A DNA stretch of 64,000 nucleotides. Source: Evansella cellulosilytica DSM 2522. GTDB lineage: Bacteria; Bacillota; Bacilli; Bacillales; Salisediminibacteriaceae. Under the pieces are notes generated by a model. It made no database searches. It saw only the letters and a list, made by a program, of their open reading frames with translations, and had not been told where the DNA came from. Below are positions 8,551 through 10,927 of this stretch, piece after piece (the stretch's first letter is position 1; each line of letters begins with the position of its first letter). The stretch covers positions 2,170,001 through 2,234,000 of the forward strand of contig NC_014829.1 of NCBI RefSeq assembly GCF_000177235.2, read 5' to 3'. The translations under genes were made by a program, and so were the position numbers.

Positions 8551-8744
8551 ACTAAAATTCATTATCTCCTATACAAGGTTATAAAATAGAAATTTTATAT
8601 TCCTATTTGAATAAGACAGGATAAGAGGTATGATGAGTGAATTACTTATAGTCCGACAAATATATCGACCGATGCAACGACGGCAATTGACAGGAATTTT
8701 GTCCCTTTCCATATATAATAAAATTTAGAGGGAGGGAGAAAGAA

Positions 8745-9611
8745 ATGGATAACTCCATAACAATATACGAACTAAAACAAGAGCTTCATGAACAGGATTT
8801 ACAATATTTACTTCATCATCAACAGCAAAGCATTTGTTTTTTTCGATTTACTGGTGGTAATCAAAGTGAAACAGATGCTCTATATGAAAAACTATATAAA
8901 TTAAAAGATGGACAAGCCCTCTTATTTGTCATTTTTAGATTTCCATTCCGATTCGAGGGCAAAAAAAGAATGGAAACAGCCATCATGCAGTATTTCAGAC
9001 TAAAAGAAATTAGTGATGCTATTATATATTTTAATAGTGATGGAATGATGGAAACAATTGAATCGAAAACTTCTATTATCGATGCTAATAAAATCTTTGA
9101 CAAGATTGAAGCAGCACCAATAAGAAGTATTCGAGAAATGATACAACATACTGGAGATATTAATATAGATGTTCATGATTTAAAAACGTTTGTTAGTAAT
9201 AAAGATGGCGCTTTATTTGTACGAACATTTGAAGGGAAAACATTTGATGAGCCATTAAAACACTTTATTTCAACACCGTATTTACCATCAGATTTTGCTG
9301 AAGGAAATCAGCTCATTGTCAATATAGGTTACTCACAAGACGTTCATATGGATACGTTTCGACAAATAAATTTAAGGCTAAATGACCTTTTTCATAAAGC
9401 AGAAATATTTAAGCTAGGCAGTTATGCAATGCAAGAACAAGGAGAAAAATTAAAGGTGACTATAATAGCCAATGGTATTGCTGATCCATTCGAGTGTCCT
9501 GATGAAAATATTACATCATTTCAGCGTGGATGGATGATGGAGAAATTAAATAGGGTGAAAATGTGGGGGAATTCCTTTAATAAAAAAGAAGTGAGAACAA
9601 TGAAAAAATGA
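8745..9611 (+). CDS. Divergent FtsZ/tubulin-family protein lacking the GTP-binding half
   Basis: The 288-residue protein aligns by eye with the second half of FtsZ. Residues 60-74 (VIFRFPFRFEGKKR) match the FtsZ segment after the tubulin signature. Residues 136-152 (TGDINIDVHDLKTFVSNK) match the T7 loop, with N140, D142 and D145 in the catalytic positions. Residues 172-250 follow the FtsZ C-terminal domain and end at KVTIIANGI. At the T4 position GGGTGTG is replaced by TGGNQSE (residues 36-42), and loops T1-T3 are missing, leaving about 35 unrelated residues. The FtsZ C-terminal peptide is absent. It probably cannot bind GTP but might contact FtsZ through T7; this is inference. AGGGAGGGAG precedes the ATG and a strong terminator follows, so it is monocistronic. 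A candidate promoter (TTGACA 8687, TATAAT 8714) has poor spacing. Confidence 0.75.
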   Translation: MDNSITIYELKQELHEQDLQYLLHHQQQSICFFRFTGGNQSETDALYEKLYKLKDGQALLFVIFRFPFRFEGKKRMETAIMQYFRLKEISDAIIYFNSDGMMETIESKTSIIDANKIFDKIEAAPIRSIREMIQHTGDINIDVHDLKTFVSNKDGALFVRTFEGKTFDEPLKHFISTPYLPSDFAEGNQLIVNIGYSQDVHMDTFRQINLRLNDLFHKAEIFKLGSYAMQEQGEKLKVTIIANGIADPFECPDENITSFQRGWMMEKLNRVKMWGNSFNKKEVRTMKK

Positions 9612-9622
9612 ATGGAAATATG

Positions 9623-9668
9623 AAAAAAAGGACCATAAAGGCAGTTCATACCTTTATGGTCCTTTTTT
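9623..9668. terminator. Strong terminator after the FtsZ-like gene
   Basis: AAAAAGGACCATAAAGG and CCTTTATGGTCCTTTTTT form a 17-bp stem (arms 9623-9641 and 9651-9668). A-runs and T-runs on both sides let it serve the convergent gene at 9735 as well. Confidence 0.9.
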
Positions 9669-9734: not shown

Positions 9735-10814
9735 CTATGCTGCTTTTTTAACCTTTTCTTTTTTCTTTTTCATTTCGAAAAACCATTTTATCAAAGGTGG
9801 TACGAAGATAATAATTATCAGTATTCGTATAAACTGAAGCGCGCTTACAATTGCTGGGTCTGCACCGATTGCTGCAGCGGTTAATACCATTTCAATTAGT
9901 CCACCAGGAGCAATACTTAACATCGCTGTAGACAAAGACAAAGAAGTTAATGCTGCTAAAATGACACCTAGTCCAAACGATATAGCGATGAGAGCAAGCG
10001 CTAAACCAAAATAAGCAAAGCAATATTTACCACCAATTTTTAAGTCTTTAAAATGAATATTTTTACCAATTCCTATTCCGACGAAAATTTGTGCAATAAT
10101 GAGAATGATGGATGGGAGTGGCAATAATTCAAGCGAACTAATATTGAGCAAAGCGGTTATTGCTAATGGGAAAATAATAATACCTGCAGGCATCACATTT
10201 CTTAGCGTTATACCTGCCACAATTGGAATAACATACAACAGATACCCCCAACTTAGTGAGATCATTTCATTCCCTTCGTTTTCTAATGCAAAGGATGATT
10301 CAACATCACTCGCTGTAAATAAATGTATAGTTACAAAAGGTACAACGAATAGAACAGTTAATAGTCGTACAGTTTGAAAAATGGCGACTAACGATGGACG
10401 CGCATGCAACGATTCACTAGCTGTCACCATCTCTGTTAAACCACCAGGAATGGAACCTAAAATACTTGTGATTCTATCAACTTTAATCCACTTGGCTAAT
10501 AGAGCACTGTTAAAAATACTAATAAAGATGAGGATGATCGTTAAAAGTATGTACGGTAAGATATAAGGTCCAACAGTTATAAAGGTTTCATTAGTAAAGT
10601 AAAGTCCGAAAAATGTACCTAATATTAATAAACCACTATTTTTTATTGGGGATGGCCATAGTATTGTTCTTTTTGAAAAACCTTGCCAAAGCATAATGAA
10701 AGCCATTGCTCCTAAAACCCATGGTAAAGGTAAATCCAATACGAAGAATAACAAACCACCTAGCAAACCAACGAGGAAAGTTTCTAATATAACTTTTAAA
10801 TGTATGTTTTTCAT
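9735..10814 (-). CDS. AbrB-family membrane protein (putative ammonia monooxygenase/transport family)
   Basis: The 359-residue protein has about ten helices arranged as two similar halves, the AbrB-duplication family often labelled ammonia monooxygenase without good evidence. Characteristic repeats are LGSIPGGLTEMV (first half) and LSIAPGGLIEMVLTA (second half). It is likely a transporter of unknown substrate. The frame begins at 10838, but AAGGAGT eight bases ahead supports ATG 10814. It is divergent from the hydrolase at 10928. Confidence 0.85.
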   Translation of the reverse strand: MKNIHLKVILETFLVGLLGGLLFFVLDLPLPWVLGAMAFIMLWQGFSKRTILWPSPIKNSGLLILGTFFGLYFTNETFITVGPYILPYILLTIILIFISIFNSALLAKWIKVDRITSILGSIPGGLTEMVTASESLHARPSLVAIFQTVRLLTVLFVVPFVTIHLFTASDVESSFALENEGNEMISLSWGYLLYVIPIVAGITLRNVMPAGIIIFPLAITALLNISSLELLPLPSIILIIAQIFVGIGIGKNIHFKDLKIGGKYCFAYFGLALALIAISFGLGVILAALTSLSLSTAMLSIAPGGLIEMVLTAAAIGADPAIVSALQFIRILIIIIFVPPLIKWFFEMKKKKEKVKKAA

Positions 10815-10927
10815 AGAGAAATACTCCTTACATGTCATACAGTAATTGTAACATAAATATATGACTCATAACTTCCCTTGATATTTGGGTATATTATAAA
10901 CAAAAAGCAAAAGGAGTTAAACGATTT

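Follow-up and report, generated by a model that had tools for sequence, protein, structure and literature searches.

An internally trimmed FtsZ homologue with an invariant T7 loop as a candidate pseudo-GTPase family in bacilli

The genome of Evansella cellulosilytica DSM 2522, a single contig of 4,681,672 bases (NC_014829.1), encodes beside its ordinary FtsZ a second, shorter FtsZ relative that has lost the T1-T3 nucleotide loops and kept the T7 loop. We refer to this protein as pseudo-FtsZ; its gene lies in a 64,000-nucleotide stretch (positions 2,170,001 to 2,234,000 of the contig), here called the window, and its features are collected in Table 1. Pseudo-FtsZ is an internally trimmed FtsZ, not the C-terminal half of one. 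By its predicted fold it belongs to the FtsZ/tubulin superfamily, and we rate its family as a pseudo-GTPase family inside that superfamily, outside FtsZ proper and new there. A search of the open-access PMC literature, with subscription papers outside its reach, found no description of a protein of this type.

The open reading frame at 8745-9611 (+ strand) has no internal stop, and its ATG is preceded by a purine-rich stretch; the intact, 288-residue frame free of frameshifts described in the original prediction, a note made from the sequence before this analysis, was recovered. The homology to FtsZ claimed there was also borne out. Residues 54-257 match the NCBIfam family TIGR00065 (ftsZ) at E 3.1e-20, the best FtsZ chain in a PDB sequence search reached E 6.1e-17, with alignments starting mostly at residue 52-58, and the host's own FtsZ was matched at E 2.1e-15 and 26% identity. 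Up to E 1 the PDB search returned 49 FtsZ and 2 EpiD sequences. The TIGR00065 score, at 72.8 bits, misses the curated cut-off of 295.2 bits; in Pfam, Tubulin and FtsZ_C both matched below threshold, and MciZ (PF13072) was not among the four families found up to E 1. The host's ftsZ stands as a gene of its own, intact and encoding GGGTGTG; its product ends in LDIPTFLRNRKKRS.

The structure prediction suggested at the outset as a check of the fold aligns residues 1-246 to Kp/SaFtsZ, beginning at about FtsZ residue 7-12. Strand S1 is kept and is followed by H3, S4, a remnant of T4, H4, S5, T5, H5 and S6, with an internal gap of about 61 FtsZ residues that takes out H1, S2, H2 and S3 together with T1-T3; T3, H1 and H2 are missing from the family as a whole. 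The loss of T1-T3 and the degradation of the tubulin signature GGGTGTG had been seen correctly, T4 being altered at 6 of 8 positions. The further statement that the protein has no GTP-binding half holds for T1-T3 and a normal T4, but not for the elements from S1 to S6 just listed, which are kept. The guanine-side N, F and D of FtsZ at H6/H7, which are known guanine contacts, are mostly S, N and N. A basic tail with a tentatively predicted C-terminal helix stands where FtsZ has its linker and C-terminal peptide, and inspection by eye of 26 tails found no copy of that conserved peptide. Pseudo-FtsZ is like FtsZ (TIGR00065) in its fold, T5, H7, the T7 loop with its G, N, D and D, and the GTPase-activating domain present in the model; it is unlike it in the deleted T1-T3, the degraded T4, the altered guanine side and the lack of a recognisable linker or C-terminal peptide, H10 being conserved instead.

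Column conservation was compared between 26 aligned pseudo-FtsZ members and 25 FtsZs, a column counting as conserved at 90% or above. The named elements hold 51 columns conserved in FtsZ, of which pseudo-FtsZ keeps all five in T5, all four in T7 and 8 of the 42 in other elements. Fisher tests gave p 8e-6 for T5 and T7 against the remainder and p 0.0095 for T7 by itself, values that assume independent columns and come from an aligner prone to anchoring on shared motifs, a mild bias in favour of the reading we propose below and hence a point against it. The T7 signature N-x-D-x-x-D is present in 26/26 members, and among the 35 residues invariant in the alignment are G137, I141 and the three T7 residues singled out originally, N140, D142 and D145. 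Also invariant are F64, R65, F66, P67, E71, G72, K73 and R75. The original prediction had left out the strong conservation of T5 and the family-specific conservation of H10.

In FtsZ, the T7 aspartates act on the nucleotide of the neighbouring subunit. The best explanation for their invariance in a protein that lacks a complete pocket would be a partner carrying GTP, of which host FtsZ is the simplest candidate. We tentatively favour, at slightly below an even chance, a mechanism in which pseudo-FtsZ, probably unable to form a complete GTP pocket itself, would use its retained T7 loop and conserved H10 – the face which in FtsZ filaments covers the next subunit's nucleotide – to dock on the nucleotide face of host FtsZ. 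The target would be FtsZ monomers or the shrinking end of filaments, and the outcome may be to cap, to nucleate or to trigger GTP hydrolysis. We infer the binding, the end bound and the outcome alike, the binding from the retained T7 only. In PMC8936486, the nucleotide-exposing end of the FtsZ filament is assigned to the shrinking end; PMC11938149 states that nucleotide-face binders would either favour nucleation and stabilisation or act as inhibitors solely by sequestration, and that known FtsZ inhibitors strike the plus face. Since the bindable end would be the shrinking one, stopping growth is less likely than minus-end capping or stabilising, nucleation, sequestration of GTP-FtsZ or action as a GTPase-activating protein. 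Of the regulator of FtsZ filaments originally envisaged, the stimulation of hydrolysis survives among the options and the arrest of growth has become the less likely one; the observation behind that proposal is confirmed and its interpretation partly supported.

Several findings weigh against docking on FtsZ. Firstly, some well-conserved elements have no role in the docking model: on the opposite face, T5 (7/7 columns conserved) and the T4 glycines equal T7 in strength of conservation, and H9 has 10 of 24 columns conserved. Secondly, conserved columns show no more than a modest enrichment on the GTPase-activating domain face, at 17 of the 48 in T7, H8, H10 and S9 versus 51 of 240 elsewhere, and, T7 apart, this face is not FtsZ's own, because H8 and S9 together keep one FtsZ-conserved column and H10 has none to keep. 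Thirdly, no division gene is linked to pseudo-FtsZ in 25 loci, with neighbour clusters judged by eye. Finally, there is no trade-off with known regulators: MinC (PF03775) occurs in 52/52 genomes, whereas MciZ (PF13072) is present in 12 of the 25 holders and also in 8 of the 27 genomes that lack pseudo-FtsZ, the host itself carrying a separate MciZ gene. As MinC is found everywhere and MciZ on both sides, pseudo-FtsZ replaces neither, and its substitution for either was rejected.

The conservation of T5, together with the invariant G37 and G38 of T4, would suit a protein that assembles with itself, or inserts within FtsZ filaments, independently of nucleotide; the product would be a polymer that resembles FtsZ's but is static, or else a weak link. 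Contacts would be made through the half of each interface that persists, H10 with the H6-H7 loop and S9 with T5; contact regions A and B, as treated in PMC8936486, require only H10, S9, T5 and the H6-H7 loop, all of which are in the predicted structure. However, a nucleotide-free self-polymer gives no evident reason for invariant T7 aspartates, and the H6-H7 stretch (residues 97-110) has merely 2 of 14 columns conserved. We consider such assembly unlikely. Somewhat less so, though still doubtful, is the use of the FtsZ fold for another purpose, whether as a phosphate-ligand sensor or scaffold (T4 GG plus T5) or as a membrane protein held by its basic helix, under its own regulator. This would be in keeping with the peculiar conserved promoter described below, with the eight invariant residues between F64 and R75, and with a tail that is net positive in 25/26 members. 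Membrane targeting by the C-terminal helix is a hint at most, since in 18 of the 26 members at least 10% of shuffles reach the combined tail score. Also against such a use is the invariance of T7, whose residues act in FtsZ on the nucleotide of a neighbouring subunit.

FtsZ could also be inhibited through exchange of C-terminal domains, yielding dead hybrids, for which PMC5414002 offers a precedent, a crystal in which FtsZ N- and C-terminal domains were swapped. We judge this very improbable: the N-terminal sheet of pseudo-FtsZ, though trimmed, is still there, and S4, T4, S5, T5 and H5 each contain invariant residues, all superfluous for a swapping fragment. That the gene is a decaying ftsZ duplicate we scarcely credit, despite its patchy occurrence (6/9 genus genomes, 18/397 in the order draw detailed below) and two loci without a full frame. 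Ratios of nonsynonymous to synonymous substitution (dN/dS) were 0.05-0.10 in the 7 of the 20 closest pairs (22 sequences) that had finite dS, where dS itself, at 1.06-2.58, is near saturation, a further point against our reading. The sequence comparisons nevertheless indicate that purifying selection acts on pseudo-FtsZ, as originally claimed; lengths of 272-314 residues across 25 loci, the 35 invariant residues, the conserved promoter and the single clade far from FtsZs also speak against decay.

Within the genus, orthologues were found in six of nine genomes, with 58-67% match identity among relatives, and the same six were the only holders among 35 genomes of the family. Wider draws gave matches in 18 of 397 genomes and 13 of 135 genera of the order (weakest E 5.5e-94) and, counting the host's own genome each time, in 3 of 398 genomes of the class and in 1 of 299 of the phylum; their limits of 1e-30 or 1e-25 make them blind to intermediates. 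A first scan of genome contigs with a single protein query gave no matches. GTDB species genomes were scanned with an alignment, and the best 80 of 91 relatives gave 79 loci: 27 at E 7e-69 or better, which constitute the pseudo-FtsZ family, and 52 at E 3e-16 or weaker, of which 36 carry an in-frame GGGTGTG and 16 only short frames (table 11). Among those best 80 of 91 no intermediate between FtsZ and pseudo-FtsZ fell in the gap from 7e-69 to 3e-16. The 27 members are bacilli, e.g. Evansella, Litchfieldia, Salirhabdus, Salinibacillus, Aquibacillus, Piscibacillus, Alkalibacillus, Ornithinibacillus, Melghiribacillus and Brevibacillus migulae; halophiles and alkaliphiles make up much of this list. 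Tree reconstruction with 26 members and 29 FtsZs put the family on one side of a branch with support 100/100, far from the FtsZs. Of 82 FtsZ frames collected, 29 entered the tree and 25 the conservation table, while 16 short frames (table 11) were unused. Two loci were left out of both alignment and tree: L104, a copy in Piscibacillus salipiscarius without the in-frame N-terminal motif, also omitted from the promoter set, and L105 (6001-6624), a Virgibacillus copy with a frame shortened to 208 residues and the promoter still present.

A missing half encoded upstream, the contingency that the original prediction had itself raised, was not seen; the gene upstream codes for a DoxX-like protein. 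Residues 1-110 of host FtsZ gave exactly one match per genome in 25 holders, each inside an open frame of 366-399 residues, so these genomes have a single full-length FtsZ, and the search turned up no N-terminal half apart from it. A split FtsZ with its other half elsewhere was rejected on these grounds. A mobile origin was likewise rejected: viral contigs gave no confirmed relative and PHROGs no family, and the plasmid (34) and phage (9) records matched were all below 60% identity, none spanning 80% of the query. Among the 20 of 34 plasmid and 9 of 9 phage matches listed, those with a named feature were FtsZ.

The gene is preceded by a conserved predicted promoter. The pattern GACA-N21-TATAAT occurs in 26 of 27 upstream regions, L086 being the exception, against 0.05% of mononucleotide shuffles; an earlier count had picked the spacing nearest 21 in each sequence, and the present one was made without that choice. 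A second GACA lies exactly 10 bases further upstream in 9 of the 27 regions, and by eye the element ACAAAACTAGT is exact in 11, with near variants in most others. The box-plus-TATAAT pattern has a single occurrence in the host genome, at the pseudo-FtsZ gene. Across eight holder genomes, ACAAAACTAGT followed by GACA returned eight rows (two at one place) in four, four of them at the pseudo-FtsZ gene and the others at three further places. A standard sigma-70 scan with spacers of 16-18 misses the promoter, returning 3 sites versus 6.9 expected. Standard promoters do not have spacers as long as 21 bases, and the gene may therefore be activated by a regulator that binds direct repeats. The direct boxes may resemble those of PhoP-type or Spo0A-activated promoters. 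The promoter accompanies the gene in differing neighbourhoods (loci L080-L103, L105, L106). A similar host site (C1:4186647-4186687; GACA, TGACA, 21-base spacer, TATAAT) precedes a small open reading frame (L168, 1294-1533, - strand), for which no convincing Pfam or NCBIfam family was found, the one Pfam match (E 0.043) lying under its cut-off.

The gene stands alone, as first described, and is followed by a terminator-like hairpin shared with the convergent downstream gene, which encodes a PF05145 (AbrB) protein. The hairpin was called on the - strand and likewise ends in a T run on the + strand; one such hairpin was found versus 0.6 expected in shuffles. Neither an operon nor a telling neighbour emerged, the most widespread neighbour cluster occurring at 7 of 25 loci. 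Five loci (L061, L062, L067, L068, L070) have a common neighbourhood unlike that of the window's genus, with one neighbour thioredoxin reductase-like by eye.

Table 1. Features of the pseudo-FtsZ locus, in window positions
Feature	Position	Strand	Details
Conserved promoter region (predicted)	8655..8719	+	GACAAAT box, GACGG box, TTGACA 8687-8692, 21-nt spacer, TATAAT 8714-8719
Purine-rich ribosome-binding stretch (putative)	8729..8739	+	from sequence
Pseudo-FtsZ gene	8745..9611	+	288 aa plus stop; ATG start
Strand S1, residues 6-11, kept	8760..8777	+	model strand 6-11; aligns with FtsZ start
Degraded T4 loop, residues 36-43	8850..8873	+	6/8 FtsZ-conserved positions altered; G37, G38 invariant
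T5 loop FPFRFEG, residues 66-72, kept	8940..8960	+	5/5 FtsZ-conserved positions unchanged
T7 loop GDINIDVHD, residues 137-145	9153..9179	+	4/4 FtsZ-conserved residues unchanged; invariant in 26/26 members
Helix H10, residues 202-219, family-specific conservation	9348..9401	+	8/18 columns at least 90% conserved; in FtsZ, no column of 197-219 reaches 90%
C-terminal helix in basic tail, residues 254-277	9504..9575	+	model helix, low confidence
Terminator-like hairpin, shared with convergent gene 9735-10838	9624..9668		20 pairs, 6 G-C

Known systems offer partial parallels. Gamma-tubulin, the tubulin-family paralogue that caps and nucleates microtubule minus ends in gamma-TuRC, is full length and presents its nucleotide face, unlike pseudo-FtsZ, which could present the T7 face only; it is a proposed analogue, and a function carried over from it would be one by analogy. 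In PMC9930161, gamma-TuRC caps ends independently of nucleotide binding. By this parallel, pseudo-FtsZ may be a nucleotide-free paralogue that sits on the nucleotide face of FtsZ and both caps and nucleates treadmilling filaments at their minus end, its T7 loop setting GTP hydrolysis in the terminal subunit, a notion we regard as rather unlikely. ARC3, compared here by description only, is a plant protein combining a degenerate FtsZ-like domain with other domains; its likeness lies in regulating an FtsZ ring, that of the chloroplast according to PMC13335998. MciZ, MinC, SulA and MipZ also act on an FtsZ polymerisation face, but PMC11938149 places their binding sites on the C-terminal (plus) face of FtsZ or in its H10 region, whereas pseudo-FtsZ would bind the opposite face. 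FtsZl1, FtsZl2, TubZ and CetZ are likewise divergent members of the superfamily, the likeness to TubZ and CetZ being by description only. FtsZl1 and FtsZl2 were reportedly named by Makarova and Koonin in 2010. In PMC2875224, FtsZl2 has all nucleotide-domain motifs, and FtsZl1 has the GTP loop, while neither T6-H7 nor an FtsZ C-terminal domain can be recognised in it; pseudo-FtsZ, having lost the GTP loop and kept the C-terminal domain, is its mirror image and falls outside the FtsZl1 definition.

FtsZ treadmilling directs where bacteria build the division septum. Were the parallel with gamma-tubulin to hold, the FtsZ minus end would have in pseudo-FtsZ a regulator supplied by nature; the modulators with known sites named in PMC11938149 act on the plus end. 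Pseudo-FtsZ could mark the minus end and test the published assignment of polarity. A family that keeps only the T7 half of the reaction would be a natural tool with which to separate catalysis from nucleotide binding and, rated as we rate it, shows a pseudo-GTPase arising within the prokaryotic tubulin line.
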